Of a stretch of 29,876 bases of DNA, positions 5,335-29,058 are shown one piece after another. The notes under the pieces are model-generated. The model saw only the letters and a list, made by a program, of their open reading frames with translations, was not told the origin of the DNA and did not search any database. Within the stretch, counting starts at the first letter, position 1, and every line of letters starts with the position of its first letter. Source of the stretch: a virus. The DNA lies in the IMG/VR virus record IMGVR_UViG_3300030118_001859, positions 1 to 29,876 of that record. One strand, given 5' to 3'. A program made the translations under genes and the position numbers.

Positions 5335-6005
5335 TTTTAAAACAAGATTTCCGAGATCTGCTAAAAGATATAGATAAAAAAAATACTCTAATAATTACTG
5401 ACCCTCCTTATAATATATATTGGGGATACAATAAAGATTATATAGACAAAGTAAGCGACGAAGAATATACTAAAATGTTTAGTTTATTTAAAGGCTTTAG
5501 AATAGTTATAATACATTATATAGAGGATATTATAAAATACGTAGTACCTGCTTTAGGAGTGCCTACTAAAGTTATACATTGGGTTTATAACATAAATTTA
5601 AAAAGACAAAGTAGAAGTATAGCTTTTTTTAATTGTACTCCTGACCTTACAAAAGTTAAGCAACCTTATAAAAACGTAACAGACAAAAGAATATTAAAAG
5701 ATATAAATAAAGGTAGCGAGGGTTGCAAGTTGTATGATTGGTGGTTTGTAAATATAATAAATAATAGGTCAAGCGAAAAGCTAGACTATAGTAATCAAAT
5801 ACCGGAAAAAATAATAAGCAATATAATAAAGATTACCGCAGAAGAAAACGATACTATATTTGACCCTTTTTGTGGTAGCGGTACAACTCCTGCGGTAGCC
5901 AGTAAATTAGGCTTTAATTATATAGCTACGGACATTTCAGAAAAAGCTTATGATATTACTACAAAAAGATTAAGAAAAATAGAAAATAACTTATTTAATC
6001 AATGA
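5331..6005 (+). CDS. Phage DNA methyltransferase (N6-adenine/N4-cytosine type)
   Basis: The 224-residue enzyme has DPPY (residues 24-27), the catalytic motif of amino-methyltransferases, near the N-terminus, and the S-adenosylmethionine-binding motif FDPFCGSGTT (177-186) near the C-terminus. This is the order of the beta class. The middle (CTPDLTKVKQPYKN, then KLYDWWFVNII) is the type seen in small phage DNA methylases. No restriction partner is nearby, so it is a solitary enzyme that may protect phage DNA. DPPY fits adenine N6 or cytosine N4; the target site is unknown. A copy of the 14-base GATC-containing word lies in its codons 6-11. Confidence 0.85.
   Translation: MILKQDFRDLLKDIDKKNTLIITDPPYNIYWGYNKDYIDKVSDEEYTKMFSLFKGFRIVIIHYIEDIIKYVVPALGVPTKVIHWVYNINLKRQSRSIAFFNCTPDLTKVKQPYKNVTDKRILKDINKGSEGCKLYDWWFVNIINNRSSEKLDYSNQIPEKIISNIIKITAEENDTIFDPFCGSGTTPAVASKLGFNYIATDISEKAYDITTKRLRKIENNLFNQ
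5348..5361 (-). repeat. Copy 1 of the 14-base word GCAGATCTCGGAAA
   Basis: On the minus strand the sequence is GCAGATCTCGGAAA, preceded by TTA. It contains one of only three GATC sites found in the window. It lies within the start of the methyltransferase gene and uses the rare codons CGA and CTG there. Confidence 0.8.
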
Positions 6006-6151
6006 TAGTATTTTTAACTTTTATTAAAAATGGTTTGTTATTAGGTGTTAGACATTTTGAGCCTGACGAGGTCAGGAATTATTGGGAAATACAAATACTA
6101 TTATTGTTTTTTAAAATTAACATATTTATTACAATAAATGATAGAACTTAG
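6002..6151 (+). CDS. 49-residue conserved-type micro-protein
   Basis: ATG at 6002 overlaps the methyltransferase stop (ATGA). The product begins MIVFLTFIKNGLLLGVRHFEP and has a hydrophobic second half with LLLFFKINIFI, ending at TAG 6149-6151. The GVRHF-P pattern with a following LLFFKINI is, as far as I recall, recurrent in Bacteroidota phages. It may be a membrane-associated peptide; the function is unknown. The next small gene starts 14 bases before its end. Confidence 0.6.
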   Translation: MIVFLTFIKNGLLLGVRHFEPDEVRNYWEIQILLLFFKINIFITINDRT

Positions 6152-6236
6152 CAACATAGGATTTTCAGCTCTTATAATACTAGTATTTTTACTAGGGTTT
6201 ATAACTGCTTTATATATTCATAGTCAAATTAAATGA
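6138..6236 (+). CDS. 32-residue single-pass membrane micro-protein
   Basis: Reading from ATG 6138 gives a short polar start (MIELSNIGF), one hydrophobic helix rich in Ile/Leu/Val/Phe, and the tail YIHSQIK. Its TGA overlaps the ATG of the nuclease gene (ATGA), and it starts within the preceding micro-gene. That overlap chain is the main evidence that it is translated. The function is unknown. Confidence 0.5.
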   Translation: MIELSNIGFSALIILVFLLGFITALYIHSQIK

Positions 6237-6577
6237 AAGAACAAGAATTACATAATAGTATAATAACTGTATTAGATTGTTACCCTTATATTTTATATAC
6301 TTCAACACTAGGCGGAGTTTATTTAGGTAAAGGAAACTATAAGCAAAAAGCTTTAGTAAAAAAACACTATAAAAAAGGTGTGCCTGATATTTTAATTTTT
6401 GAGCCAAATAAAGACTATAAAGGTTTAATGATTGAAGTAAAAGTAGGATACAATAAACCTAGTATTTATCAAAAAAAATGGATTGACAATTTAAACGCTA
6501 GAGGTTATAAAGCCGTAGTATGTTATAATTTAGAAGAGTTTATAGAAGTATTTACAGAATATATAAAAACAATATGA
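6233..6577 (+). CDS. VRR-NUC domain nuclease
   Basis: The 114-residue protein is the size of a stand-alone VRR-NUC domain, a PD-(D/E)xK nuclease fold. Visible residues are GVPD (49-52), then IEVK (67-70) with the E-x-K pair, and Q80 followed by W83, as expected in this family. The G-rich TLGGVYLGKG segment near residue 26 is also typical. It probably cleaves branched or flap DNA (Holliday junction-like) during recombination or before packaging. It overlaps its neighbours on both sides by 4 bases. Confidence 0.85.
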   Translation: MKEQELHNSIITVLDCYPYILYTSTLGGVYLGKGNYKQKALVKKHYKKGVPDILIFEPNKDYKGLMIEVKVGYNKPSIYQKKWIDNLNARGYKAVVCYNLEEFIEVFTEYIKTI

Positions 6578-6858
6578 GAAAAAAACACAATAAGCCTAAA
6601 AACATAAGAAGAAAAGACGAACATTTTAAATACTTTTTATTTGAAATTAATCACGGGCATACAAACGAAATATTAATACATAAAGAGACTCAAAAAATAC
6701 CGGATATAGACGAATATATTACTAATAAATTTGAAGCTATATACGATTATTTTGAGCCTAGAGTAGTAGAATTAGAAATAAGTCCGCTAGGAGAATACGA
6801 ATATAAAGAATTAGATTACTTGGGAGCGACCAAATTAATGACTCTTTGGAACAGTTAA
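6574..6858 (+). CDS. Hypothetical protein
   Basis: The 94-residue protein has a very basic start (MRKKHNKPKNIRRK), then a mixed alpha/beta section with FEINHGHTNEILIH and many aromatic and acidic residues. No known motif, signal peptide or membrane segment was recognised. Its start overlaps the nuclease stop (ATGA), and its end overlaps the sigma-like gene by 13 bases, so it belongs to the same translationally linked string. The function is unknown. Confidence 0.55.
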   Translation: MRKKHNKPKNIRRKDEHFKYFLFEINHGHTNEILIHKETQKIPDIDEYITNKFEAIYDYFEPRVVELEISPLGEYEYKELDYLGATKLMTLWNS

Positions 6859-7376
6859 ATAATTATATAGAAAATACCTATGACAAATTATTAGAAATTA
6901 GTAAGAGGATTACTAGTAATAGATTTCCTGACTATTACGATTTATTACATGAAAGTATAGAAGCTTTATATAATGCAGATAAAAAAAAGATTATAAAGAT
7001 TATAGAACAAAAAAAGTTAACCTTTTATTTTATAAGAATATTAATAAATCAATATCACTCTAAGACAAGTCCTTACTATTATAAGTATAAGAAATTTAAC
7101 GAGTTAATGAACAATATGGACGGTATTAATATTTATAGTAAAGAGGCTACGTCAAAAGAAAGAATAAAACAGTTAGAATTAAACGAAGAAAGGTTACAAT
7201 GGATTGAACAAAAGTTAAAAGGTTTAGCTTGGTTTGACGTAGAAGTATTTAAAATATATTTTAGAGAGGGTTTTAGTCTTAATAGTATGAGTAAGGCTAC
7301 TAAAATAAATAGAAGCACGCTAGGAAAGTCAATAAGATTTATTAAGAATTATTTAAAAGGTTTGAAAGATGATTGA
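6846..7376 (+). CDS. Sigma-like transcription factor with C-terminal helix-turn-helix
   Basis: The 176-residue protein looks like a divergent phage sigma-family protein. An N-terminal helical part has DYYDLLHESIEALY (about 29-42), similar to core-binding sigma region 2. The C-terminal part is WFDVEVFKIYFREGFSLNSMSKATKINRSTLGK..., a sigma-4-like helix-turn-helix (about 130-165). The only start available is TTG at 6846, inside the previous gene; no in-frame ATG precedes the conserved region. It lies at the end of the early/middle unit, just before the packaging genes, which is where a late-gene activator would be expected. It may recognise the bipartite motif found before four late units. It could also be an HTH protein without sigma activity. 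Confidence 0.6.
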   Translation: MEQLNNYIENTYDKLLEISKRITSNRFPDYYDLLHESIEALYNADKKKIIKIIEQKKLTFYFIRILINQYHSKTSPYYYKYKKFNELMNNMDGINIYSKEATSKERIKQLELNEERLQWIEQKLKGLAWFDVEVFKIYFREGFSLNSMSKATKINRSTLGKSIRFIKNYLKGLKDD

Positions 7377-7488
7377 ATTTATAAAACACTTTTTAGGTTT
7401 TTGTGGAGAGCCTCATATAAATATATTTACTATAATGATGAGTACGCCAATAATAAGTTATATAATATATAAATTTATAAAATTATGA
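7369..7488 (+). CDS. 39-residue membrane micro-protein
   Basis: ATG at 7369 overlaps the stop of the sigma-like gene by 8 bases, and the TGA at 7486-7488 overlaps the next ATG (ATGA). The product begins MIEFIKHFLGFCGE and has a hydrophobic C-terminal half with two Met and several Ile/Tyr, ending YKFIKL. A single membrane helix is likely. It is supported mainly by the overlaps on both sides. Confidence 0.5.
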   Translation: MIEFIKHFLGFCGEPHINIFTIMMSTPIISYIIYKFIKL

Positions 7489-7853
7489 CAGACAAAAGTA
7501 AAGGACTAGGAGATAGCCTAGAAAAAGCTTTTAAAGCTACTAAAATAGACAAACTGGCTAAAAAGGTCTTAGGGGAAGACTGCGGTTGTGAAGAGCGTAA
7601 AAACGCTTTAAATGCTATGTTCCCTTATTTTAAGAATATAAGGCAATTTACAGAAGACGAGATAAAAATTTATGAAGAAGTTATGCCTACAGTAGAAAAA
7701 CGTAAAAGGGTAACTCCTGAACAAAAAGTTATACTAGATGAATTATATAGAAGAGTCTTTGGTAATAAGCCTATTTGGAAAAGTTGTACGCCATGCAACG
7801 CCAAAATAATAAATAACTTAAAAAAAGTATACGAGAAAAGTTGTAAGGTATGA
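7485..7853 (+). CDS. Cysteine-containing conserved-type hypothetical protein
   Basis: The 122-residue protein has a helical N-terminus, a CGCEER motif (about 33-38) and a C-terminal CTPC (about 101-104) followed by a basic helix. Proteins with GDCGC-ER-x-LN and a second Cys pair are, as I recall, frequent in Bacteroidota phages near the terminase genes. The two Cys pairs could bind zinc together. No enzyme motif is present. It is joined to its neighbours by 4-base overlaps on both sides. Confidence 0.55.
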   Translation: MTDKSKGLGDSLEKAFKATKIDKLAKKVLGEDCGCEERKNALNAMFPYFKNIRQFTEDEIKIYEEVMPTVEKRKRVTPEQKVILDELYRRVFGNKPIWKSCTPCNAKIINNLKKVYEKSCKV

Positions 7854-8116
7854 AAAAGCACGTTAAAATCTACATGAAACATCACGGCTACGATATAGGA
7901 GACTTTATACCATGCGAAAACTGTGGAACTACTGCCGTCGACATTCATCACTTAGTAGGAAGAGGAATCGGAGGAGACCCTAGAGGGCATAGAAATCAAA
8001 TAGAAAACCTTATAGCTTTATGTAGGTCATGTCATATAAAAGCAGAAATGAATAAAGAATTTAATAATCAACTTAAAGAACAAAATTTAGTTAAACATAA
8101 TTGTAAATACTCATGA
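7850..8116 (+). CDS. Small HNH endonuclease near the terminase genes
   Basis: The 88-residue protein is a compact HNH domain: CENC (22-25), DIHHLVGRGIGG (31-42), N53, then LCRSCH (57-62). The four cysteines form the zinc site, and the His/Asn residues form the ββα-metal catalytic centre. HNH proteins beside terminase genes are known to assist cos-site cleavage in HK97-like phages, so a packaging role is reasonable, although a ParB-like gene separates it from the small terminase here. It starts in a 4-base overlap and ends in one (ATGA). Confidence 0.85.
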   Translation: MKKHVKIYMKHHGYDIGDFIPCENCGTTAVDIHHLVGRGIGGDPRGHRNQIENLIALCRSCHIKAEMNKEFNNQLKEQNLVKHNCKYS

Positions 8117-8595
8117 AAATAGAAAAAGTTAAAATATCAGAGCTGAAATTTGCAGATTATAATCCTCGGCAAATGACAAAAAAACAATATGAAGACTTAA
8201 AAGAGTCTATATCTCGCTTCGGTGTAGTAGACCCTCTTATAATTAATAACGATAATACTATAATCGGAGGTCATCAACGTTGTCGGATAATGAAAGAATA
8301 CGGAAGAGAGTTTGCTTACGTAGTTAGGTTAGACTTATCTAAGCAGGCAGAGAAAGAATTAAATATAAGGCTTAATAAGAATCAGGGTAATTGGGATATG
8401 AACTTACTAGCTAATTTTGAAGTACAAGACTTAAAAGATTGGGGATTCAAAGAAATAGAATTAGGATTTAATATAGATAAAATAGAAGAAAATCAAAAAG
8501 AAATTACTGTAGTAATAAAAGAAGAGGATGTAAGTAAAGCCGTAGAAATACATAGGGAACTTAAAGAAAGAGGGTATAACGTAACTATAAAATAA
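8113..8595 (+). CDS. ParB-like nuclease domain protein
   Basis: The 160-residue protein has the ParB/sulfiredoxin-fold signature: an N-terminal ISELKFADYNPRQM, then LKESISRFGVVDPLII and IIGGHQR (50-56), where the G-H-x-R part is the nucleotide-binding loop. The C-terminal part has WDMNLLANFEVQDLKDWGF, typical of phage ParB-like proteins that lie upstream of terminase genes, and ends in a charged helix. Phage members may nick DNA or methylate it through fused domains; no methyltransferase domain is fused here. It probably acts on DNA during modification or packaging. The next gene starts 10 bases downstream. Confidence 0.8.
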   Translation: MKIEKVKISELKFADYNPRQMTKKQYEDLKESISRFGVVDPLIINNDNTIIGGHQRCRIMKEYGREFAYVVRLDLSKQAEKELNIRLNKNQGNWDMNLLANFEVQDLKDWGFKEIELGFNIDKIEENQKEITVVIKEEDVSKAVEIHRELKERGYNVTIK

Positions 8596-8605
8596 ATTTA
8601 ATAAA

Positions 8606-8989
8606 ATGGGCAAAAAAGAACGTACACTAAAGAAAGAAATTTTAATACAAGCTTTAGAAAGTAGCTTAGGCATAGTATCAACCGCTTGTAATAAGTGCGG
8701 AGTAAGTAGAAGTAGCTTTTATAAATGGTATCACGAAGACGAAGAGTTTAGGCAAAAAGTAGACGAAATAGATAACCTTAAATTAGACTTTGTTGAAAGC
8801 CAGTTATTTAAGAATATACAAAACGAAAAAGAGAAAAGTATAATATTCTATTTACAACACAAAGGACATAAAAGAGGGTACATACAAAGACAAAATATTA
8901 ACTTAACATCAAACGAAGAAGACATAAAAAAGATTGAAATTGAAATCATTGAATCTAAAGGGAACAGTAGTCCTACAAAAGAATCTTAA
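8606..8989 (+). CDS. terS: Terminase small subunit (candidate)
   Basis: The 127-residue protein has an N-terminal helix-turn-helix of the terminase type: ILIQALESSLGIVSTACNKCGVSRSSFYKWYHEDEEF (about 12-48), followed by a long helix FVESQLFKNIQNEKEKSIIFYLQHKG (about 63-88) and a charged tail. This matches small terminase proteins that bind the packaging site and deliver DNA to the motor. Its 3' end overlaps the large subunit gene by up to 56 bases, which is strong context. Protein families with this HTH also include unrelated regulators, but position makes TerS the best call. Confidence 0.75.
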   Translation: MGKKERTLKKEILIQALESSLGIVSTACNKCGVSRSSFYKWYHEDEEFRQKVDEIDNLKLDFVESQLFKNIQNEKEKSIIFYLQHKGHKRGYIQRQNINLTSNEEDIKKIEIEIIESKGNSSPTKES

Positions 8990-10109
8990 TGCGAGTACAA
9001 GAATTGTAGTTAATCAGGGCGGTACTAGAAGTAGTAAGACTTATAGTTTAGCTCAATTAGTTATATTAAAGGCCTTACAAGAAAAGGGTAAAGTATATAG
9101 TATTTGTAGAAAGACTCTTCCTGCGTTAAAAGGAACTGCTTATAGAGACTTTCTAGGCATACTAGAAGACTTAAACTTATACAATCCTGACAAACACAAT
9201 AAGAGCGAATTAACATATAGGCTTAATGACAACCTTATAGAGTTTATATCAATAGACATGAGTCAAAAAATACGAGGTCGTAAAAGAAATGTACTATGGC
9301 TTAATGAGGCTAATGAGTTTACTATGGAGGATTGGATACAACTTACTTTAAGAACTACAGAAAATATATACTTAGACTTTAACCCGTCAGACCCTTATAG
9401 TTGGATTTACGACAATGTAATAAATAGGGACGATTGTACTTTTATAAAGTCTACATACTTAGACAATCCTTTTTTATCAGACGATACTATAAACGAAATA
9501 GAAAGGCTAAGGCAATTAGACTCTAATTATTGGAAAATATACGGACTTGGAGATATGGCTCAACCTACAGAAACTATATTTAGGCAGTTTGAATTATGTA
9601 ATAATATTCCTGAACAAGCAGAAAGAATCGCTTTAGGTATGGACTTTGGATTTACTAACGACCCGACCGCTATAGTAGAAGTTTATAAACTAAATGACGA
9701 CTTATACTTAAATGAATTATTGTACAAAAAAGGTCTTACGAATCAGGATATAGCTCGTAGTTTAACAGATTTGCAGATTACGCAAAGAACAGAAATTATA
9801 TACGATTCCGCAGAGCCAAAGAGTGGAGAAGAATTAAGAAGACTAGGCTTTTTAATGTACCCGGCAAAAAAAGGAGCGGATTCTGTAAATATGGGTATTG
9901 ACGTTTTAAGGCGATATAAGCTAAATATAACTAAGTCTAGTACAAACTTAATAAATGAAATAAAGTATTATAAATGGCTTGTAGATAAAAACGGTCATAT
10001 AATAAATAAACCTGCTACAAATCAACAAGACCACTTATTAGACGCCTGCCGTTACGTTGCTTTAAACAAACTAGTAACTAACTATACAGGCAAGTATTAT
10101 ATATTATGA
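8934..10109 (+). CDS. terL: Terminase large subunit, ATPase-nuclease (Terminase_3-like)
   Basis: The packaging motor has Walker A GGTRSSKT (29-36), Walker B NVLWLNEANE (119-128), the coupling motif YLDFNPS (146-152), then the RNase H-like nuclease with acidic residues at GMDFGF (D237), IIYDSAEPKS (D291) and QQDHLLDACRYV (about 364-375). At about 390 residues it is full length for this family. No ATG is available: the frame has TTG at 8934, 8940 and 8949, all inside the small-subunit gene. The 8949 start would place Walker A about 24 residues in, as in many relatives. It ends with TGA at 10107-10109, overlapping the first part of the proposed late promoter. Confidence 0.93.
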   Translation: MKLKSLNLKGTVVLQKNLNASTRIVVNQGGTRSSKTYSLAQLVILKALQEKGKVYSICRKTLPALKGTAYRDFLGILEDLNLYNPDKHNKSELTYRLNDNLIEFISIDMSQKIRGRKRNVLWLNEANEFTMEDWIQLTLRTTENIYLDFNPSDPYSWIYDNVINRDDCTFIKSTYLDNPFLSDDTINEIERLRQLDSNYWKIYGLGDMAQPTETIFRQFELCNNIPEQAERIALGMDFGFTNDPTAIVEVYKLNDDLYLNELLYKKGLTNQDIARSLTDLQITQRTEIIYDSAEPKSGEELRRLGFLMYPAKKGADSVNMGIDVLRRYKLNITKSSTNLINEIKYYKWLVDKNGHIINKPATNQQDHLLDACRYVALNKLVTNYTGKYYIL

Positions 10110-10134
10110 ACAAAAACTTAAAAACTATATTTAT
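10104..10134 (+). promoter_or_regulatory. Putative late promoter motif, copy 1 (before the tail module)
   Basis: TTATGAACAA (10104-10113), 14 bases, then TATTTAT (10128-10134), five bases before the ATG of the tail chaperone gene. It is one of four gap-located copies of TTRTRAACAA-N14-TAYTTAY. The very short distance to the ATG would give an almost leaderless message, or the start may vary. Confidence 0.5.
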
Positions 10135-10139
10135 ATAAA

Positions 10140-10766
10140 ATGAAGTACGAAGAAATACAAGTTAAAATTCCTACTGATTGGAAAGACATATCAATAAGTA
10201 TGTTTCAGGATTTTAAAACAATTGAAAAAACCGAGTACAATAATGAAGAGGAAAAGGCAATAGACTTTATATGTGCTATGACTAAAATAAAACCTGAGCA
10301 ATTAGTAAGGTTTAAATATAAAGATTTAAAGTATTTATCGAACAAGCTAACAAACTTAATGAGTAGTAGTTTTGACGATAAAACATTAATAAAGAAAGTA
10401 GACTTTAACGGAGTTAAGTACGGATTTATACCAAATCTCAGCTCTATAAGTCTAGGAGAATTTGTAGACATAGAAGAATATTGTAAAAAACCTTATGATA
10501 ATCTACATAAAATAATGAGCGTTTTATATAGACCTATCATAAAAGAAAGAGGAGAAAGATATAATATAGAAGAGTATAAGCCAGACGAATTTGAACAGGA
10601 TAAATTTAAAGACTTTCCTATAATAGAATCGGTATCTGCTCTGAGTTTTTTTTTTCGTTTAGGGAAGCAACTAAAGCTCGCTTTGCTCAAATATTCGACT
10701 CGGAAAGTGGAGAAGAAAATAGCAAAACTAAAAAGCTTTCAACGAAGTGGGGTTGGTATAATGTAA
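10140..10766 (+). CDS. Tail assembly chaperone, zero-frame product
   Basis: The first ~170 residues (MKYEEIQVKIPTDWKDISISMFQDF...) resemble the N-terminal part of tail assembly chaperones of Bacteroidota siphophages. After a run of ten T (10646-10655) the zero frame continues as a basic tail of about 37 residues (for example KLALLKYSTRKVEKK) to TAA at 10764-10766. That tail looks like out-of-frame sequence, while the -1 frame holds a conserved-looking domain. As in the lambda gpG/gpGT pair, both a short and a frameshifted long form may be made. The chaperone would coat the tape measure protein during tail assembly. It is the first gene after the terminase. Confidence 0.65.
   Translation: MKYEEIQVKIPTDWKDISISMFQDFKTIEKTEYNNEEEKAIDFICAMTKIKPEQLVRFKYKDLKYLSNKLTNLMSSSFDDKTLIKKVDFNGVKYGFIPNLSSISLGEFVDIEEYCKKPYDNLHKIMSVLYRPIIKERGERYNIEEYKPDEFEQDKFKDFPIIESVSALSFFFRLGKQLKLALLKYSTRKVEKKIAKLKSFQRSGVGIM
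10646..10687 (+). other. Probable programmed -1 ribosomal frameshift site
   Basis: Zero-frame codons AGT TTT TTT TTT CGT span ten consecutive T (10646-10655). Slipping back one base gives TTT TTT TTT TCG and enters a frame open to 10891. AGCAA (10666-10670) can pair with TTGCT (10683-10687), a small hairpin about 10 bases downstream that could stimulate slipping. A sequencing error in the T-run is the main alternative. Confidence 0.65.
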
Positions 10767-10891
10767 TATTTTTATTAAGTAACGATAATATACTTAATAC
10801 AGAAGCTATTACTAAACTAGAATTATACGTAGTATTAACGTATATGTGTTATAAGCAAGATATGGACGTAGAACAAAGAAATAAATATTAA
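10655..10891 (+). CDS. Tail assembly chaperone, -1 frame extension
   Basis: From the slip site the -1 frame reads SFREATKARFAQIFD, then KWGWYNVIFLLSNDN, AITKLELYVVLTYMCYKQD and stops at TAA 10889-10891. WGWYNVIFLL and LxLYxxLTYMxYKQD are typical of the second half of tail chaperones in Bacteroidota phages. There is no start codon of its own before the conserved part. The fused product with 10140 would be about 250 residues, comparable to a gpGT-type protein. The next gene begins at 10893, two bases after this stop, which shows that this frame, rather than the zero frame ending at 10766, fills the space. Confidence 0.7.
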   Translation, partial: SFREATKARFAQIFDSESGEENSKTKKLSTKWGWYNVIFLLSNDNILNTEAITKLELYVVLTYMCYKQDMDVEQRNKY

Positions 10892-10892
10892 A

Positions 10893-11399
10893 ATGATTAC
10901 ATATAAAAACATAGTAGACGACTTTAGGGATATTGCAACTAATCACTTTCAAATAAATAGTTTTCATAATGGCTTTTTGGACGAAGTAGATATAGATAAA
11001 ATGAACGAACTAGATTTCCCTATATTATATTTAGAGCCTGCTCCTACTACTTTAGACAAAGGAGTATTAACTTATAGCTTTAATGTATTTGTATTAAGTT
11101 TACTAAAAGAGGATTTAACAAATAGAGAGGAGGTTTGGTCTGATACTTTGCAAATAATGCAGGACATAGCCGCAGAAATAAAGCAAAATTTATCTTTACA
11201 AACATCAGGAGCAGATAGCGGTAAAAAGTTTAGCTATTTTGAAAACGAAGTAGTATTAGAACTGCCTTTAAATATAGAGCCTATTACTGCTAGATTTGCT
11301 AATATTCTTACAGGTTGGACTTCTAATATTAATCTACAAGTAAATAACACTAATAACCTTTGCGAAGCTCCTATAGAGCCTAGCGACAAAGCGGCGTAA
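10893..11399 (+). CDS. Tail terminator/completion-like protein
   Basis: The 168-residue protein has a helical start (MITYKNIVDDFRDIATNHFQINSF), a middle with EPAPTTLDKGVLTYSFNVFVLSLL, and a polar tail. The arrangement of an N-terminal helix followed by beta strands with a 'TYSF-V-V' core resembles small tail terminator or completion proteins that cap the tail tube at the head-proximal end. It sits between the tail chaperone and an HK97 gp10-like gene, which supports that role. It has no catalytic motif, and the assignment is from position and general layout. Confidence 0.5.
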   Translation: MITYKNIVDDFRDIATNHFQINSFHNGFLDEVDIDKMNELDFPILYLEPAPTTLDKGVLTYSFNVFVLSLLKEDLTNREEVWSDTLQIMQDIAAEIKQNLSLQTSGADSGKKFSYFENEVVLELPLNIEPITARFANILTGWTSNINLQVNNTNNLCEAPIEPSDKAA

Positions 11400-11401
11400 T
11401 A

Positions 11402-12013
11402 ATGAATATAAAACTACGAAATCCTAAAAGCGGTAGATTTACTAAGATAAAAGCTAAAAAGACTATAAAGGCTTTTGATAACTTTGGTCGTAGTATGGTA
11501 TTAAGGGGTAAAAAAATACTTGCTTCTAAAAATAAAAAAGCGTCAGGAACTCTTATAGACTCTTATCACTATAAATTTATACCGTTAAAAAAGAATCAGG
11601 GTATGGAGTTAAGGTTTGAATTTGGGCAAGCTTCCGATTATTGGCGATTTATAGACGAGGGAGTAAAAGGAGTAGGAGGATATACGGGTAGCGGTAGAAG
11701 TAGAGGAGGTAATAGTCCTTATAAGTTTAAATATGACAATCCAGGAGGTAAGCTAGCTAATGCTATAGAAAGTTGGATTAGATATAAAAGTATTAGCTTA
11801 AAAGACGGTATGACATTAACAGGATTATCCTACGCTATAGGTTATAGTATAAAAAGAAGAGGACTAGAAAGAACTTTATTTTTTACAAAACCTTTAGAGG
11901 CTATGTATAATAAAATGACTCAACAAGTTACAGATACTTATGCTAACGAAGTCCAAGAGTGTATCAATAAAATGGATACAGTAATAGCAAATTTAAAATC
12001 AGAATTAAGTTAA
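11402..12013 (+). CDS. HK97 gp10-like head-tail/neck protein
   Basis: The 203-residue protein is strongly basic at the N-terminus (RNPKSGRFTKIKAKKTIKAF). It has the core DYWRFIDEGVKGVGGY, then SPYKFKYDNPGGKLANAIESWI, a pattern characteristic of gp10-like tail completion proteins in Bacteroidota phages, including the Y-x-F-I-D-E-G-V-K-G motif (about 76-86). Such proteins join the head connector to the tail or complete the tail end. It begins 2 bases after the preceding stop and is followed 1 base later by a tail protein gene. Confidence 0.65.
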   Translation: MNIKLRNPKSGRFTKIKAKKTIKAFDNFGRSMVLRGKKILASKNKKASGTLIDSYHYKFIPLKKNQGMELRFEFGQASDYWRFIDEGVKGVGGYTGSGRSRGGNSPYKFKYDNPGGKLANAIESWIRYKSISLKDGMTLTGLSYAIGYSIKRRGLERTLFFTKPLEAMYNKMTQQVTDTYANEVQECINKMDTVIANLKSELS

Positions 12014-12014
12014 A

Positions 12015-19043: not shown

Positions 19044-20063
19044 ATGACAAAGAAAAAAATAAAAAAAGTAGAATTAATAATAGACGAGCTTAGCGAAAAA
19101 TTTGGAGTAGAGGCTATAAGTTTAGTAGAATTTCCTGCAATAGAAGAGAACTTTATATTTTTTAATAAAGACAATTTTTTAAGTTTAGCAAAATTAGACG
19201 AAGAGCAAAAGACTTTAGTAGGAGCGGTACTAATTCCTGAAAAAGAGATACCTAGGTACGACCAAGAAAACAACGAGGAGTTTGTAGTTTTTTTTACTAA
19301 AGAGACAATTAAAAAAGCTCAGGAGCTATTTATGAGCAATCTAAGAAACAATAATGCTACTTACGAACATAAAGTGCCGGTAAAGGGCGTAAGCGTTGTA
19401 GAGAGTTGGATAAAGGAAGACAAGAAAAATGATAAGTCTACTAGCTACGGATTTAAAAATTTACCCGTAGGCACTTGGTTTGTAAAAATGAAAATTGAAA
19501 ATTCTGAAATTTGGGAATCAGTAAAACAGGGCAAAGTAAAAGGGTTTAGTATAGAGGGATATTTTACAGATAAATTAATAGAGGCACAAATTAGCAGATC
19601 TCGGAAAACAGATATAATAGATTTAGCGGAAGAGTGTACGGATTGTCCTGACGAAGTTACATTAGCAAAAATAACCGATATAATATTAGAAAACGAATTA
19701 GTAGTAGTAGCGGCTTTAGACGGCGAGCCTTTATTTGCTACAAAAGAAGAAGCGGAGTTGTACGCAGATATTATTAAAAAGTGTAAAGGATTTCATACTC
19801 ATAACGTAAACGGTCAAAAATTATATATGGCTTGTTACGACCACGCAGAAGCTACAAAAGACGAATACGTAGAAAATGGAAAAGGCAAAAAGAAAAAACG
19901 TAAAAAATATAAAAGCGTAAAATACGCAGAGTTTATACATAATCAAGCTTTAGCTAAGTATCCGTGGGAACAATGTATTCGAGACATGGTTAAAGAATAC
20001 GGCAATAAAGAAACGGCGGCTAAAATATGTTCCGCTATAAAAAATAGGACTAAAAAAAGGTAG
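19044..20063 (+). CDS. XkdF-like prohead serine protease with C-terminal extension
   Basis: The first ~185 residues match the XkdF-type capsid protease pattern: VGAVLIPEKEIPR (about 59-71), NATYEHKVPVKGVSVVESWI (about 103-122), DKSTSYGF, LPVGTWFVKMKI and GKVKGFSIEGYF. These proteases cleave scaffold and capsid N-termini during head maturation; the His/Ser residues at EH and FSIEG probably include catalytic ones. The C-terminal 150 residues add a domain with CKGFHTHNVNGQKLYM and KYPWEQCIRDMVKEYG...AAKICSAIK, similar to modules recurring in phage head proteins. A copy of the 14-base GATC word lies between the two parts. It is followed by the scaffold and capsid genes, as expected. Confidence 0.8.
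   Translation: MTKKKIKKVELIIDELSEKFGVEAISLVEFPAIEENFIFFNKDNFLSLAKLDEEQKTLVGAVLIPEKEIPRYDQENNEEFVVFFTKETIKKAQELFMSNLRNNNATYEHKVPVKGVSVVESWIKEDKKNDKSTSYGFKNLPVGTWFVKMKIENSEIWESVKQGKVKGFSIEGYFTDKLIEAQISRSRKTDIIDLAEECTDCPDEVTLAKITDIILENELVVVAALDGEPLFATKEEAELYADIIKKCKGFHTHNVNGQKLYMACYDHAEATKDEYVENGKGKKKKRKKYKSVKYAEFIHNQALAKYPWEQCIRDMVKEYGNKETAAKICSAIKNRTKKR
19594..19607 (+). repeat. Copy 2 of the 14-base word GCAGATCTCGGAAA
   Basis: Exact 14-base match, preceded by TTA as in copy 1. It is read in a different codon register (AGC AGA TCT CGG AAA) inside the protease gene and includes the rare codon CGG. It contains the second of only three GATC sites. Confidence 0.8.
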
Positions 20064-22400: not shown

Positions 22401-22435
22401 TGTAATAAGAATTATATAAATCGTTACTCAAAAAG

Positions 22436-22463
22436 AAAGGGAGCTTATTTGCTCCCTTTTTTT
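22436..22463. terminator. Bidirectional intrinsic terminator between tail tube and inverted unit
   Basis: AAAGGGAGC (22436-22444) pairs with GCTCCCTTT (22451-22459) around a 6-base loop, followed by T-rich sequence on the plus strand; on the minus strand the stem is followed by CTTTCTTTTT. It separates the rightward tail tube gene from the two leftward genes ending at 22466. Confidence 0.85.
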
Positions 22464-22465
22464 AT

Positions 22466-22756
22466 TTAACATTCTACTTTATGTTTAAAATTATTTATTA
22501 TATAGTCTAACATTTCTTCGTAATCGTAACCCTTTTTTTTACAAAAGATAGATAAGTCTAATTCGTCTGACATTTTATATCTATGGTAATCTATTTCTAC
22601 TATACGAAGTTTTGCTATCTTAGTAAATGTATTATATAAACCTCGTATATTATATATACTTGTATTGAAAAAATTACTGCCTATTGTGACATCTATATCA
22701 ATAGCTAGTCCTGTATAAACTCTATTACGTTGTTTTTTTATTTGTATATTTTTCAT
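22466..22756 (-). CDS. Hypothetical protein, second gene of the inverted unit
   Basis: The 96-residue protein has a basic start (MKNIQIKKQRNRVY), a hydrophobic beta/alpha middle (GLAIDIDVTIGSNFF), and an acidic, Tyr-rich C-terminal helix with KKGYDYEEMLDYIINNF. No membrane helix or signal peptide is certain. Together with the gene at 22761 it forms a short leftward unit set between structural genes read in the other direction, with its own promoter and terminator. The codons look as AT-rich as the surroundings. The function is unknown; such cargo genes often act on the host. Confidence 0.55.
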   Translation of the reverse strand: MKNIQIKKQRNRVYTGLAIDIDVTIGSNFFNTSIYNIRGLYNTFTKIAKLRIVEIDYHRYKMSDELDLSIFCKKKGYDYEEMLDYIINNFKHKVEC

Positions 22757-22760
22757 TGTT

Positions 22761-23081
22761 TTATTTATTTAGTATAAAGTCTATAAATATGTTAAAGCTA
22801 TCCACTTCAGGTATTGACTTATGAGAAATAATTATTCTGTCTTGTATAGGTAATAATTTAGTTAATTTTAATTTTTTCAACCAATCTTTAGTAGTTATTG
22901 GTTGCTTACCTTTATTATTTGTACAAGAACTCTCAAAATGAAAATTTATACATTCAGTTTTAACATCATTAATTTCAGTAATATTTGTATTTAATTCTTC
23001 CAAATGATGAGGAACATTTTTAGTAATAAATTCAATTATTGATTTATCGTTAGATAAATTTATTTTTTGTGTTTTTTTCAT
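22761..23081 (-). CDS. Hypothetical protein, first gene of the inverted unit
   Basis: The 106-residue protein starts MKKTQKINLSNDKSIIEFI, has two Cys in the middle (TECINFHFESSC), a GKQPITTKDWLKKLKL segment and an Ile/Phe-rich end (DSFNIFIDFILNK). No known motif, signal peptide or clear membrane segment. It begins about 30 bases after a TAnnTTTG-type box and ends 4 bases before the next leftward start, so the two genes are one unit. Unlike most neighbours it uses many ATT and AAT codons, which may reflect separate acquisition. Confidence 0.55.
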   Translation of the reverse strand: MKKTQKINLSNDKSIIEFITKNVPHHLEELNTNITEINDVKTECINFHFESSCTNNKGKQPITTKDWLKKLKLTKLLPIQDRIIISHKSIPEVDSFNIFIDFILNK

Positions 23082-23112
23082 TGTTTTAATTTTTTATTGG
23101 TTAATTATAAAC

Positions 23113-23120
23113 CAAATATA
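23113..23120 (-). promoter_or_regulatory. Leftward -7 box of the inverted unit
   Basis: On the minus strand TATATTTG matches TAnnTTTG exactly, as in the leftward early promoter at 3487. The upstream TTTG element is not well conserved (GTTTTTA at the expected distance). The leader to the ATG at 23081 is about 30 bases. It suggests expression by host polymerase, independent of late genes. Confidence 0.5.
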
Positions 23121-23178
23121 TAAAAAAAATTTAATATAAAAACTATAATTATAAAATATTTTTTATAAAATACACAAT

Positions 23179-23209
23179 TTGTGAACAATTATAGAATATT
23201 TATACTTAC
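23179..23209 (+). promoter_or_regulatory. Putative late promoter motif, copy 4 (after the inverted unit)
   Basis: TTGTGAACAA (23179-23188), 14 bases, then TACTTAC (23203-23209), differing from the other copies by two T-to-C changes; the leader to the ATG at 23226 is 16 bases. It restarts rightward late transcription downstream of the inverted unit. Confidence 0.5.
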
Positions 23210-23225
23210 ATAAAAGTATATAACT

Positions 23226-23411
23226 ATGGCTTGGAAAGTAAAAAAAGAATACGACGGAAAAACTGTTCCTAATTTTAATATCCCTTTAAATGAATTATCG
23301 CAAAAGTTTATAAAAGGTTTGCCTGATAGTGTTAGAAATGGATATTTTATAGAAGAATCAAAACCAAAAAAAAAGAAAAATGGAAATAGAGAAAAATTAG
23401 ACAATGACTAA
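23226..23411 (+). CDS. Small basic hypothetical protein
   Basis: The 61-residue protein reads MAWKVKKEYDGKTVPNFNIP at the start, then LSQKFIKGLPDSVRNGYFIE, and ends in a Lys-rich tail (KPKKKKNGNREKL). The G-K-T-V-P pattern and a short basic tail are common in small phage proteins near head-tail genes; I do not know the function. It is the first gene after late promoter copy 4 and overlaps the next small gene by 8 bases. Confidence 0.6.
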   Translation: MAWKVKKEYDGKTVPNFNIPLNELSQKFIKGLPDSVRNGYFIEESKPKKKKNGNREKLDND

Positions 23412-23547
23412 AAAAAAAGGAGTTATTACAAATGAAGAAAAACTTCAAGAGTTTATAGAAAAAGCAGAAAAATTAACTGACGATAAAGAATATAATAAAC
23501 TTTTAGATGAGTATTATAATTTAATATGGAATTACGATAATGTATAG
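23404..23547 (+). CDS. 47-residue helical hypothetical protein
   Basis: ATG at 23404 overlaps the preceding gene, and TAG at 23545-23547 lies 8 bases past the next ATG. The product is MTKKKGVITNEEKLQEFIEK followed by a charged helix and the Tyr/Trp-rich end LDEYYNLIWNYDNV. No known motif. The overlap on both sides is the main support for translation. Confidence 0.55.
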   Translation: MTKKKGVITNEEKLQEFIEKAEKLTDDKEYNKLLDEYYNLIWNYDNV

Positions 23548-24166
23548 TATAACTTGGACAAAGAATCCGTCTATGGCTATTACGCAAGTCTTAAAGATGT
23601 ATATACCTTTAGGCTCTCACGTAGACAATGATACACTTAACGGAAATTTTATTTTTTGTAGATTTCAGGGCAGGACAACTAACTTTACTAGAATGGTTAC
23701 GGCTATACCTACTGCTTCCGGTAGTTTTACTAATCCTATATATGAATACAATAATAGATATTGGTTAATACAAGTAGACGTTTTATTCGGTTACGGAGCT
23801 AATGCCTTAGAAAATAGAGGAAGCGTATACGGACAGGATTTAATGTCTGTAAAAAGAGCGGGAAAAGTTTGTCTACAGTCAAGTTTTGAAATTTACGACG
23901 TTACTTTTTTTTATAAAGATACTAATAATTTAACACAAAGTCAAATGACAGAAATAGGAGCAACTACGACTTTTCAAGTTAGATGTACTCCCGACTATGT
24001 TGGTACAACGTATCCTTTTACTAGAAACGTAGTACCTTTTTATACAGAATATACTGATAATGATTTAGTAAATATAGAAACTTCTGCAAAAGGCGTTCCT
24101 GCGGGAGCTAGTGAAGACAAACAAAATGCTATTTATGGAATAGAAATATGGTATCCAAGTTATTAA
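23540..24166 (+). CDS. Hypothetical, probably structural protein
   Basis: The 208-residue protein has no signal peptide, membrane segment or enzyme motif. It is beta-rich with frequent Thr/Tyr/Phe and short turns (GSHVDNDTLNGNFIFCRFQG, YEYNNRYWLIQVDVLFGYGA). It lies immediately upstream of the portal gene, in the late region, so a minor virion protein is likely. I do not recognise the family. Confidence 0.5.
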   Translation: MYSITWTKNPSMAITQVLKMYIPLGSHVDNDTLNGNFIFCRFQGRTTNFTRMVTAIPTASGSFTNPIYEYNNRYWLIQVDVLFGYGANALENRGSVYGQDLMSVKRAGKVCLQSSFEIYDVTFFYKDTNNLTQSQMTEIGATTTFQVRCTPDYVGTTYPFTRNVVPFYTEYTDNDLVNIETSAKGVPAGASEDKQNAIYGIEIWYPSY

Positions 24167-24167
24167 T

Positions 24168-26312
24168 ATGAAAAAAAAAGAAAATATATCAGTAGTACAC
24201 TTAGCAGAATATAACCTGCCTAGTATAGTAGAAAACAATCATAAAGACTATATAGAGTTTGGAGTAGATAATTTATATCCTCAGTATTTAATAGAATTAT
24301 ATAACGGTAGTAGTATAAATAATGCAATTATAAAAGGCGTTGCCGCTATGATTTACGGAGAGGGTATAGACGCTACAGACAAAGACGACGACGACGTAAA
24401 AAAGGGAGACTGGCTTAAATTACAAAACTTACTTTCTAAAAATGAAGACGTCTTAAAATGCTTAGCTTTTGATTTAAAGCTTTTCGGAATGTGTTACGTG
24501 AATACTATTTGGAATAGACCTAGAACGGAAATAGTAGAAATTAGGCACGTTCCGGCTCAGTACATAAGAAGCGGAAAAGCCGACTCTTTTGGAAAAATAT
24601 CTCAATATTATTACTCTCCCGATTGGTCAAATCCTAGAAAACAAAAACCTAGAGTATACAATTCTTTTAATTCTAAAGACAGAACTAATGCTAGTCAAAT
24701 TTTATGTATAAAAGATTATTCTCCGGGTAGTTTTTACTATAGTACGCCTGACTATCAGGGTTCTACTAGCTATATTCAGTTAGATATGGAGGTAGCACAA
24801 TTTCACTTATCAAACATAAAAAGCGGTATGTTCCCTAGTCTTGCAATTTCAATGACAAACGGAATCCCAAGCCGTGAAGAAAGAAAAACAATAGAAAGAC
24901 AAATTAACCAAAAATTCGGAGGGTCAGGAAATGCAGGAAAAATACTACTTACTTTTAACGACGGTAAAGATACCGCTCCTGAGATAGTGCCTATAAATGC
25001 TAATGACAATTCCGAAAAATATCAATTTCTAGCTCAGGAAACTACTCGTAAAATTATGACAGGTCATAGAGTAGTTAGCGGACTCCTTTTTGGAGTTAAG
25101 GGAGACGGTCAGGGATTCGGTAATAATGCAGACGAGTTGAGAGATTCATTTTCGCTTTTTATGAATTCTGTAATCAAACCAATGCAGAACACTCTTTTAA
25201 ACGGTTTAAAGCCTGTTTTAAGAGCAAATGACATAAACCTAGATTTATACTTTAAAACGCTTAAACCCGCAGATTTTATAGACTTAGAAAACGTAGGCAA
25301 ATTAGACGAGGACGAACAAGAAAAAGAGGGAATAGATACAGGTAAAGAAATAAAAAAAGAGTTTAAAGACTTAAAAGATATAGATACTAAGCCAACTAAA
25401 GGAATGATAGCAGAAGCTAAAAAAGGTTTAGAATGGCGAAGAGAATACGGCAGGGGAGGAACTGAAACAGGAGTCGCTAGAGCGAGGACAATTTCTAACG
25501 GACAAAATTTATCTATTTCAACTATTCGTAGAATGAATAGTTTTTTTGCTAGACACGAAAAAAGTAGCAAAGGAGGAGAGGGATTTGAGCCGGGAGAGGA
25601 CGGCTTTCCAAGTGCAGGTCGTATAGCTTGGGCGTTGTGGGGAGGAGACGCCGGTCAATCTTGGGCGGCTAAGAAAGTCAAAGAAATAGAAAACGTAGAA
25701 GAGCTTACTGAGCTTTCAGACGAGCAATTTGACGAAGTAATGAGCAATCTAGGAGGAGAGCAAGTAGGTAAAGATTGGGAAGTTGTAGAAGAAAGAGACT
25801 ATGAAACTATGAATGAAACTTTTGAAGAGTGGGCAGAAAGAAAAATACAAAAAAGAGAAGACTTTGCTAGAACAATAGACTCAAAGCCTAGCGGCTTTAG
25901 TTATTTAGACAAGTCTTTTTATAAAATTAGATTTAAGTATATAAAAAAATCTAGTAAATCCTCTAGTAAATCTCGTCCTTTTTGTAAACAAATGATGAGC
26001 AAAACTTCTAGGGGTATAGTTTATAGAATAGAAGACATAGATAAAGCTAGTAGGTCAGGAGTAAATAGTAAATTTGGTCATAAAGGAAGAGCCTACGACC
26101 TTTTTAGATTTAAAGGAGGTTTGTATTGTAGGCACGCTTGGAGCGTTGTACTATACAAACTAAAAAAAGAAGCTTCTAAAGACTCTGAAAATATAAATGA
26201 TTATAAAAATGTATCGGCAATACCTAAAACTTATAAACCAAATCCGAGAGGGTTAGACGACGCTAAAACTGCTCCTGTAAATATGCCGAATCAGGGACGG
26301 TATCCGTCATAA
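24168..26312 (+). CDS. Portal protein with two added C-terminal domains
   Basis: The first ~390 residues look like a phage portal: VDNLYPQYLIELYNGSSI near 33-50, SYIQLDMEVAQFHLSNIKSG around 205-224, then a stem-like helical part with FLAQETTRKIMTGHRVVSGLL. A second segment (about 420-500) has EYGRGGTETGVARARTISNG and SIRRMNSFFARHE-type sequence with GFPSAGRIAWALWGGDAG, a module found in other phage head proteins. The last part (about 560-714) has RPFCKQMMSK, GFGHKG-like NSKFGHKGRAYDLF and GGLYCRHAW, resembling a MuF-type minor head domain. Together, portal and head-opening functions may be fused in one polypeptide. It is far from the terminase, unlike most phages. Confidence 0.8.
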   Translation: MKKKENISVVHLAEYNLPSIVENNHKDYIEFGVDNLYPQYLIELYNGSSINNAIIKGVAAMIYGEGIDATDKDDDDVKKGDWLKLQNLLSKNEDVLKCLAFDLKLFGMCYVNTIWNRPRTEIVEIRHVPAQYIRSGKADSFGKISQYYYSPDWSNPRKQKPRVYNSFNSKDRTNASQILCIKDYSPGSFYYSTPDYQGSTSYIQLDMEVAQFHLSNIKSGMFPSLAISMTNGIPSREERKTIERQINQKFGGSGNAGKILLTFNDGKDTAPEIVPINANDNSEKYQFLAQETTRKIMTGHRVVSGLLFGVKGDGQGFGNNADELRDSFSLFMNSVIKPMQNTLLNGLKPVLRANDINLDLYFKTLKPADFIDLENVGKLDEDEQEKEGIDTGKEIKKEFKDLKDIDTKPTKGMIAEAKKGLEWRREYGRGGTETGVARARTISNGQNLSISTIRRMNSFFARHEKSSKGGEGFEPGEDGFPSAGRIAWALWGGDAGQSWAAKKVKEIENVEELTELSDEQFDEVMSNLGGEQVGKDWEVVEERDYETMNETFEEWAERKIQKREDFARTIDSKPSGFSYLDKSFYKIRFKYIKKSSKSSSKSRPFCKQMMSKTSRGIVYRIEDIDKASRSGVNSKFGHKGRAYDLFRFKGGLYCRHAWSVVLYKLKKEASKDSENINDYKNVSAIPKTYKPNPRGLDDAKTAPVNMPNQGRYPS

Positions 26313-26324
26313 AAAATATTAAAA

Positions 26325-26900
26325 ATGGGAATACAAAGAACTTTATTTATTAGTACGCACAGATTAAAAATGGACACTAGTCTTGGAGGAAGTGTAGATA
26401 ACGATTTACTTTTACCATATATACTTATGGCTCAGGAAAGATATATACTTCCTGTTTTAGGTACAGATTTATATAATAAAATAATTTCTGATATAGGAAA
26501 TACTACTTTATCAGGTAATTACTTAACACTTTTACAGACTTATATACAACCTGCTTTAGTACAATTTGCTTACGCAACTATTTTACCGTTCCTGCGTTTA
26601 AGATTAGTCAATAATTCAGTTGTAACTATGAATACAGAAAACGGCTCTAGTGTAAGTCATAATGATTTAAAGCCTATAATAAACGCAAGTATTGACCATG
26701 GAGAATTTTTAAGAGAAAGATTAATAGAATATATAAGCAATAATACTTCTAGCTTTCCTGAATACTCTAGCAATACAGGAGCAGACCTTTCTCCTACAAC
26801 GGCTAACTATTACGCAGGCTTAAACTTAGACGTTTCTCCTGATAACGAGCGTATGAGTGCTATTTTAAGAAAAGCAGGAGTAACTATAGTAGATTGTTAA
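26325..26900 (+). CDS. Head-tail connector/adaptor-like protein
   Basis: The 191-residue protein is mostly helical. It begins MGIQRTLFISTHRLKMDTSL and has PYILMAQERYILPVLGTDLY (about 30-49), an arrangement seen in gp6-like connector proteins that sit under the portal, then a long helix with PALVQFAYATILPFLRLRL. Its place directly after the portal supports this. The Ser/Thr-rich, acidic C-terminus ends with a single Cys. No enzymatic motif. Confidence 0.65.
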   Translation: MGIQRTLFISTHRLKMDTSLGGSVDNDLLLPYILMAQERYILPVLGTDLYNKIISDIGNTTLSGNYLTLLQTYIQPALVQFAYATILPFLRLRLVNNSVVTMNTENGSSVSHNDLKPIINASIDHGEFLRERLIEYISNNTSSFPEYSSNTGADLSPTTANYYAGLNLDVSPDNERMSAILRKAGVTIVDC

Positions 26901-26903
26901 TAA

Positions 26904-27014
26904 ATGCAAACAAAAAAAAAGCTTAAAGAGCGTAAAATTAATATTAAAAAACTTAAAACCTATCTAAATAATGGCGGGACAAAGACTAACAGACAAAACA
27001 GAACTAACCGATAA
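26904..27014 (+). CDS. Possible 36-residue basic peptide
   Basis: ATG at 26904 follows the connector stop by 3 bases and gives a Lys/Arg-rich peptide (MQTKKKLKERKINIKKLK...), ending at TAA 27012-27014, 44 bases inside the next gene. The composition is AAA-rich and could arise by chance in this AT-rich gap, but genes of this genome are often packed like this. Confidence 0.25.
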   Translation: MQTKKKLKERKINIKKLKTYLNNGGTKTNRQNRTNR

Positions 27015-27513
27015 TTTAGCTACTACTGATAAATTACATGTAGTTGACGCTTCAGATACTACTTCATCTTCTCAGGGTACTTCTAAATTTTTTACACCTA
27101 AATTATTTAACATTACTGACAAAGTCAGTATAAATAATACTGAGTTTAAAGCTTTACCTACAAGCGGAGCAACAATAGTCGACTTACCCGGAGCAGGATT
27201 TATGATTGTTCCTTTTAGTGTTTTAGTAAAACATACACCGGGAGCAAGTCCTAATACTGCTTCAATGGGTATGAAAGTAGGTTATGTAAATAATAGTACT
27301 ACTTATTTTTGGGCGGAGACTAGATTTTGGCCTGATAGTCCAACCTATGTAGGACAATGGTTTGAATTTGGACAAACTTTTGGCTCAATGAAAGGATTGA
27401 GTTCTACTTCAATAGAAAATCAAAAACTTTATCTTTATGCTACAGGCTCGGTATCTCCAACTGCAACAGATTCTTTAGATGTTTATGTAACTTATAAAGT
27501 AGTTAAATTATAA
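26971..27513 (+). CDS. Probable virion surface (head fibre/decoration-like) protein
   Basis: The 180-residue protein starts MAGQRLTDKTELTDNLATTD and then DKLHVVDASDTTSSSQGTSK, a pattern often seen in phage fibre or head-spike N-termini that attach to virions. The rest is a beta-sandwich-like domain with FMIVPFSVLVKHTPG and LYLYATGS..., ending in DVYVTYKVVKL. No enzyme motif or signal peptide. Position after the connector and before exported host-modifying candidates agrees with a surface structural protein; the role is inferred from sequence style only. Confidence 0.5.
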   Translation: MAGQRLTDKTELTDNLATTDKLHVVDASDTTSSSQGTSKFFTPKLFNITDKVSINNTEFKALPTSGATIVDLPGAGFMIVPFSVLVKHTPGASPNTASMGMKVGYVNNSTTYFWAETRFWPDSPTYVGQWFEFGQTFGSMKGLSSTSIENQKLYLYATGSVSPTATDSLDVYVTYKVVKL

Positions 27514-27514
27514 T

Positions 27515-28546
27515 ATGGAATCTACAAAATATATATACGCTTTTTTAATAATATTAGTATTAGGATTAGGCACATGTAACGCTCAATTTTTTAAGTACGC
27601 TACATTTTATACTTCAATGAATGTAAATACGTCTATGACAGAAGTACAAGACTTTAGAGCTGAAAATAAAGGATATGAAGAAACAACTCAAATTAATGAT
27701 TATGACTATTCTTTCCAAATTGGGATTAGAAAGGTTGCAAGATACGACTTTGAACAAAAAAAGCGTACTTGGTATACAGGAACTGATGAGCAAACTTATA
27801 GCGATAATACTCTTATCGGTAATTCTATTGGTTGGGAGTATTTACTTAATTACGCTTTTATACGTAATCGTTCTGAAAAATTTATTAACTCAGATTTTTG
27901 GCTTAGATATTTAGGTAGTAAAGGAGTAACAAAAATACAAGTAAAAAAAGATGAGTATAGGGATTTACAATTCACGTCATTTGATACAAGACACAGAATT
28001 AATAAGGGACGTTGGGATTTTACTATAGGAATTTGCGGAAGAAGCCACCCTGTATACCATATAAACCCTATAGAGGATACTTGGGAAGTAGGAGAGCAGA
28101 GTTTTTTTGATTTAGCCGCAGATTTTGGATATTCTAATCAGTTTGTAAATGGTCGCTTTCATTGGTTTAAAGACGGAGAATTATTAGCAACGTCAAACGA
28201 CGAGTTTTTTAAGCACTATTTCGGCTCGGCTATAGCAGAATATAACAGAAACGAATTAAACGCTCTAGGCGACGTCTACGAGCTTTCTGCGGTATTAGGA
28301 GCTTCTTACTATCAGTATAGTAATAATTTCTGGCTTTTAAGTTGGGTTAATATTTTACCTTATAACTACGGTTTAAGCGAGTATAGTTATGAGTATGATA
28401 ATACGCCTATAGATTTTGACCTAGGAATAGTTACAGGTTGGAAAATTACAAAGTCTTTAGGTATATTTTTAGAGGGTACTTATTTACGCTATTGGGAAAA
28501 ACCTATATACGAGTGTAAATTAGGGTTTAATTATTTAATATTTTAG
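27515..28546 (+). CDS. Exported outer-membrane beta-barrel-like protein
   Basis: The 343-residue protein has an N-terminal signal peptide (MESTKYIYAFLIILVLGLGT, cleavage likely near CNA-Q at 22-24) and then many alternating aromatic/polar strands separated by polar turns, with the last strand YECKLGFNYLIF ending in Phe, the usual signal for outer-membrane barrel assembly. Host-like barrels on phage genomes can mask receptors or change the envelope at infection. It follows a virion protein by 2 bases and precedes the T9SS-like secreted gene. It might instead be a soluble beta-rich protein, but the signal peptide and terminal Phe argue for the envelope. Confidence 0.6.
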   Translation: MESTKYIYAFLIILVLGLGTCNAQFFKYATFYTSMNVNTSMTEVQDFRAENKGYEETTQINDYDYSFQIGIRKVARYDFEQKKRTWYTGTDEQTYSDNTLIGNSIGWEYLLNYAFIRNRSEKFINSDFWLRYLGSKGVTKIQVKKDEYRDLQFTSFDTRHRINKGRWDFTIGICGRSHPVYHINPIEDTWEVGEQSFFDLAADFGYSNQFVNGRFHWFKDGELLATSNDEFFKHYFGSAIAEYNRNELNALGDVYELSAVLGASYYQYSNNFWLLSWVNILPYNYGLSEYSYEYDNTPIDFDLGIVTGWKITKSLGIFLEGTYLRYWEKPIYECKLGFNYLIF

Positions 28547-28548
28547 TT

Positions 28549-29058
28549 ATGAAGAAATTTTTATTATTATTTGTATTTAGTTTTAGCTTTAGTCAAACAA
28601 ATTGCGAGTTATGCGTAGAGCAAAACGGCTTTTATTGTGGAGATGACGAGTCTAATTGGACTCAATACTCGCCGAATGGTTGCGTCCCTAACGGTTTAGA
28701 CGGATTGTTTTATCTTAATGACGGTTGGGCAGATTGTGTCAACGCCGCAGATGAGGACAGTGCCGTTCCTACTACTTTAGCAGACTGTGATATATACAAT
28801 ATTAACGATACTATATTTATAACTGATACTGTTTACGTAAATATAATAGATACTTTATACATTAATACTATAGATAGTTTATATGTAACTGAGTTTATAG
28901 ATTGCGTTACAGGTTTGCCGTGTGAAAATTTAAGTATTTTGCAGATCTCGGAAAAAAAGGAAAATAAAAATAAAATATATAACATTGAGGGAAAAGAAAT
29001 ATATAGACGTCAGGGGTTATATATACAGAATGGAAAAATAAATTTTAAAATAAAATAA
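28549..29058 (+). CDS. Secreted cysteine-rich protein with T9SS-like C-terminal domain
   Basis: The 169-residue protein has a signal peptide typical of flavobacteria (MKKFLLLFVFSFSFS-Q). A Cys-rich region (about 19-80: C19, C22, C30, C45, C63, C80) includes LNDGWADCVNAADED, like the calcium loop of LDL-receptor class A modules. Then come 8-residue repeats of the DT-hydrophobic-Y type (87-116), and a C-terminal segment with KIYNIEGKEI and GLYIQNGKINF. The latter resembles the type IX secretion sorting domain (YNLxGxxV...GxYIxNGKxxxx). It would be exported to the host cell surface. Phage genes with this layout may alter adsorption of further phages. It carries a 14-base GATC word. Confidence 0.65.
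   Translation: MKKFLLLFVFSFSFSQTNCELCVEQNGFYCGDDESNWTQYSPNGCVPNGLDGLFYLNDGWADCVNAADEDSAVPTTLADCDIYNINDTIFITDTVYVNIIDTLYINTIDSLYVTEFIDCVTGLPCENLSILQISEKKENKNKIYNIEGKEIYRRQGLYIQNGKINFKIK
28807..28896 (+). repeat. Short tandem peptide repeat in the secreted protein
   Basis: The codons specify DTIFIT, DTVYVNII, DTLYINTI and DSLYVTEF in sequence: three 8-residue units after a 6-residue partial one, with period about 24 bases. Such D-T/S-hydrophobic-Y repeats are frequent in surface proteins of Bacteroidota and may form a beta-solenoid or stalk. Confidence 0.6.
28941..28954 (+). repeat. Copy 3 of the 14-base word GCAGATCTCGGAAA
   Basis: Exact 14-base match, preceded by TTT rather than TTA, and read as (TT)G CAG ATC TCG GAA A in the secreted protein gene, a third codon register. 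It contains the third GATC. Confidence 0.8.

Follow-up and report, generated by a model that had tools for sequence, protein, structure and literature searches.

Why does an AT-rich phage genome carry one 14-nt word, GCAGATCTCGGAAA, three times without a mismatch in three unrelated genes? The window, the whole stretch of 29,876 nt that was analysed, is a tailed-phage genome (31.6% GC) that encodes a terminase, a portal, a prohead protease, a tail module and a small replication module, and whose end runs on into its own start in relatives (position 29870 joins position 1). By capsid, the nearest named phages are the Nonlabens phages P12024S and P12024L, at 28% amino-acid identity, and a marine Bacteroidetes-type bacterium is therefore the likely host. 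The closest relatives are 84-90% identical in DNA, and those compared were G001 (19.5 kb), G018 (13 kb) and L325 (4.9 kb). Three ORFs, 22466-22756 and 22761-23081 (minus) and 3174-3461 (minus), are without a relative in any related contig compared; the first two run against the strand of the structural module that surrounds them and look like a recently gained pair.

The initial annotation had reported the word in three codon registers and had proposed a count of exact and one-mismatch copies. We find exactly three exact copies in the window (Table 1) and none at one or two mismatches; matches at three mismatches are few and scattered (9773, 11211 and 28118). A TT had been described two bases upstream of all three copies, but in fact a single base separates it from the word. 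Copies A and B share 17 nt, TTAGCAGATCTCGGAAA, and copies B and C share 15 nt, GCAGATCTCGGAAAA, the shared lengths among the copies being unequal (17, 15 and 14 nt). The registers of the three copies do differ, one being antisense and the other two falling at codon positions 2 and 3; both strands are represented, the copies share no position within their genes, and the word is neither palindromic nor an inverted repeat beyond AGATCT. The host genes had been read as encoding a DNA methyltransferase, a prohead protease and a secreted protein, which agrees with their domains and, for the last, with its signal-peptide-like start. Codons inside the word that had been noted as rarely used are rare synonyms in this genome (CGA 3.7%, CTG 1.4% and CGG 1.8%). 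We observed no strand-composition switch, as a replication landmark, at the three sites, and a search for RNA elements and tRNAs gave no match.

Table 1. The three copies of the word, the genes that host them and the GATC sites of the window
Feature	Position	Strand	Description
Copy A	5348..5361	-	near start of DNA methylase gene; gene-strand reading D-F-R-D-L-L; 17-nt core TTAGCAGATCTCGGAAA common with copy B
N6_N4 DNA methylase gene hosting copy A	5331..6005	+	PF01555, 6e-21; swapped gene slot
Copy B	19594..19607	+	in prohead protease gene, just past protease domain; coincides with 12-nt in-frame insertion
Prohead protease gene hosting copy B	19044..20063	+	Peptidase_S78_2, PF14550, 3e-19
Copy C	28941..28954	+	variable linker near end of secreted protein gene; same length as relatives
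Secreted-type protein gene hosting copy C	28549..29058	+	signal-peptide-like start, no Pfam family
GATC no. 1 of 3	5355..5358		in copy A
GATC no. 2 of 3	19597..19600		in copy B
GATC no. 3 of 3	28944..28947		in copy C

No other repeated triple in the window is as informative as the word, and none as strong was found in about 120 related contigs. Chance was assessed by redistributing synonymous codons genome-wide while keeping proteins and codon usage (4,882 shuffles). None of the 4,882 shuffles yielded a 14-mer triple reaching the word's information content, whereas two-copy words of similar information arose in 1,162 of them (24%), and therefore it is the triple, and not any pair, that is unusual. 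Additionally, the genome lacks a general excess of 15- or 16-mer duplications, so that a generic copying process is not visible.

When examining GATC, which occurs three times in the whole window, we found every occurrence inside the 14-mer. The codon-preserving shuffles contained a mean of 39 and a minimum of 22 such sites, and G001, G018 and L325 contain none; we conclude that this phage lineage avoids GATC, probably as a result of host restriction. Of 133 related loci, 33 are free of GATC and others carry about the expected number, a pattern that restriction in some hosts would produce. The few sites left over in low-GATC relatives stand in unrelated contexts, and no analogous private GATC word was found among these relatives. 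Depletion of GATC in the window and its close relatives is what GATC restriction-site avoidance (GATC-type R-M) produces, but such avoidance by itself would leave no sites at all, or sites in random places, whereas here three are found in one identical 14-mer; restriction-site avoidance is the background and does not explain the shared context. Three surviving or re-appearing GATC sites that share ten further bases are not due to chance, and the three words therefore have a common cause. That protein conservation offers no explanation and that the cause lies at the DNA level, as the initial annotation had argued, is borne out by the differing registers, the rare codons and the confinement of the sole GATC sites of a GATC-avoiding genome to the word. 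Other restriction-type sites are also avoided in the window (GCGC absent, CGCG 1, GGCC 3 and CAGC 13), an avoidance common to the window, G001 and G018. In a 28-kb relative, G011 (L181/L182), all seven GATC sites fall inside 2.8 kb (4393-7195), a clustering that suggests a segment recently recombined from a phage tolerant of GATC.

Upon closer examination of the individual sites, the window reads EA-QISRSRKT-DII at site B, whereas all aligned relatives read EA-SRPK-DII or similar. The in-frame insertion at this site occurs in no aligned relative, including one with 95% amino-acid identity, and the word is missing at the orthologous protease position of a relative that is ~85-90% identical there. 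Site C is ILQISEKKENKNK in the window and IIEILKKSQNKNK in relatives. No identity step that would mark a mosaic boundary was observed at site B or C. Copy A sits at the edge of the swapped slot, and its residues agree with the pattern of the wider methylase family; the L174 orthologue reads D-Y-R-N-I-I at this site and is without the word, and the site has the same length as in its only close orthologue (DFRDLLKD versus DYRNIIKD). The peptides encoded at A and C are closer to the orthologue than those of permuted words (P = 0.0025 for A and P = 0.0098 for C, with one or two orthologues each), although a filter on tolerated insertions would likewise yield protein-compatible sites. Among the 8,765 five-codon runs of the genome, those at A and C rank 3rd and 6th in rarity, and rare codons that spell an orthologue-like peptide are the expected trace of selection on the DNA where the protein limits the choice.

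Other extreme rare-codon runs lie in conserved patches, and one of them is the site of a partial match, CTCGGAAA at 10699, that the initial annotation had listed as a weaker form of the word. It proved to be unrelated, and we rejected it as a decayed copy, given that it is common to the closest relative, G001, inside a nearly invariant patch. This patch (10640-10766) has a run of ten T followed by near-identity to G001, and holds some of the genome's rarest codons; its part at 10640-10710 is nearly invariant against about 84% identity around it. Situated just before the tail genes, the patch has the look of a region with a programmed frameshift or dual coding.

The genes around the copies offer further observations. 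The slot behind the replication gene holds the N6_N4 methylase in the window and, in L325 (594-2313), a C5 methylase together with an unidentified 280-aa ORF. CCGG sites number 28 in the window versus none in G001, G018, L325 and L048, and the window's methylase may protect CCGG. The methylase family is also present in G016 and an EndoVII-like nuclease in G023, both without the word, and therefore neither gene alone implies it; the window's own EndoVII-like nuclease (2488-3180) was considered as the reader of the word and set aside on the evidence of G023. At the C-terminus of the secreted-type protein, NKIYNIEGKEIYRRQGLYIQNGKINFKIK resembles a Bacteroidetes type IX secretion tail, and at least 94 IMG/VR stretches carry genes for relatives of this protein.

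Outside the window, the word was found at two or fewer mismatches in 0 of 53 protease-bearing related loci, exactly in 0 of 133 related loci and at one or no mismatch in 0 of 36 related records, many of them near-complete; around site A, no locus in relatives comes closer to it than three mismatches. A search for close relatives that span sites A and C and carry the same gene there found none, L325 spanning the slot without the methylase, and the relatives covering A or C that were compared are no closer than about 75-80% nucleotide identity. In IMG/VR and 84,980 prokaryote genomes (GTDB) the word occurs at chance frequency and, among the matches listed, in single copy per locus; a source in a host or mobile element, sought in phages, plasmids, IMG/VR and the 84,980 genomes, gave only single chance-level matches among those listed. 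The 17-nt form occurs 4 times in IMG/VR, always singly and never in the samples of the close relatives. On these searches the word is private to this phage. A mobile repeat (IS, MITE or REP-like) was rejected, with no multi-copy occurrence among the matches listed from IMG/VR or the GTDB genomes, and an ancient function conserved across relatives was rejected as well, with the word absent from all relatives examined. The initial annotation had asked whether related phages keep the position or copy number of the word and had named absence from close relatives as evidence against its reading; we found the word in none of them. The conserved packaging mark or established recombination site that it had suggested is not supported, as none of the related contigs examined has the word, not even at the orthologous protease position. 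The word was recently placed or selected by some process, and two mechanisms fit, namely a recognition site and tract copying. Any function would be very young, since even a relative ~85-90% identical around B is without the word.

Between these, and also over an artefact, we lean tentatively towards a recognition site that acts at the DNA level, was gained recently and serves a protein encoded by the phage or by its current host. A sequence-specific phage or host protein would read the word, for instance by nicking, cleaving, modifying or in a replication-related role, the three copies would have been kept where genes tolerate the word, and selection, not mere copying, would have fixed them. 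Selection is favoured because the spelling is protein-compatible yet codon-alien and because short duplications are in no general excess. The reading is further supported by GATC, which is otherwise fully purged and yet is present three times in one context. Against it, binding sites usually show degeneracy, whereas the window contains no near-match variants, and the copies are on both strands without a common gene position. In a fuller version, the three GATC sites of a GATC-purged phage, each set in an invariant 14-bp word, would be recognised by a DNA-binding or DNA-modifying protein of its own and so be protected or needed. This would be a new dispersed-site system that arose within one lineage; we regard it as rather unlikely.

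Recent copying of a tract of ~14-17 nt from one site to the other two, by template switching or patch conversion at microhomology and without function, is a real possibility that we rate behind the recognition site, and copy A, in a newly acquired methylase gene, may be the donor. Exact identity without decayed copies, unequal shared lengths such as copying edges would give, the private 12-nt insertion at B, the position of A at the edge of a recently swapped slot with residues that fit its family, and the absence of the word from relatives are all consistent with copying. However, a genome-wide excess of 15-16-nt duplications is absent, A itself has alien codons, unlike a typical donor, copying would have had to happen twice independently, each time in frame or without a change of length and with a protein product that is tolerated, and GATC is apparently counter-selected in this lineage.

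An oligonucleotide sequence built into the contig in the laboratory or during assembly, which the initial annotation had raised as an objection, is improbable. The word is GC-rich and alien, and nine of its bases, CCGAGATCT, are identical to what we take to be the Illumina P5 oligonucleotide, an overlap with the presumed sequence whose length is reached by 0.8% of permuted words. However, at all three sites syntenic phage sequence flanks the word on both sides and the reading frames are intact, none of the 11-mers of common adapters occurs in the window, and the 17-nt form is as rare and single in IMG/VR as described above.

The localized single-strand interruption (nick) sites of tf, phiKMV-like and T5 phages lie on one strand only and at similar positions among related phages (PMC3517423). 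Like the word, they are exact words dispersed within unrelated phage genes and read at the DNA level, and as a precedent for exact words spread over several genes these nickase sites come closest (PMC3517423). We nevertheless consider a phage nick site of the T5, phiKMV or tf kind very improbable here, as the word has only three copies, one on the minus and two on the plus strand, and is in no relative. Chance repetition can be practically dismissed, for although similar two-copy words are common in shuffles and the window was picked from many, no shuffle yields such a triple, and three GATC sites sharing ten further bases in an otherwise GATC-free genome would arise with a probability that we estimate, given three sites, at <1e-9.

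For a recognition site, a second comparison is with phage-plasmids such as N15, which have dispersed centromere-like sites. These resemble the word in being few, short and scattered among phage genes, whereas parS and the N15-type centromere are inverted repeats bound by a ParB with its own HTH, and the symmetry of the word ends at AGATCT. The window showed no partition operon, only a ParB_N-domain protein of phage type (8113-8595), which gave no Pfam match to a ParB HTH domain. A parS or phage-plasmid centromere was therefore rejected, there being neither an inverted repeat nor a ParB HTH match.

Phages under restriction usually lose the target sites. What is new here is that all remaining GATC of a GATC-avoiding genome is confined to one triplicate 14-mer. 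That three identical GATC sites were kept or gained would mean either that a DNA-level function outweighs their cost, or that tracts this short can be copied within a phage genome into genes that lacked them.
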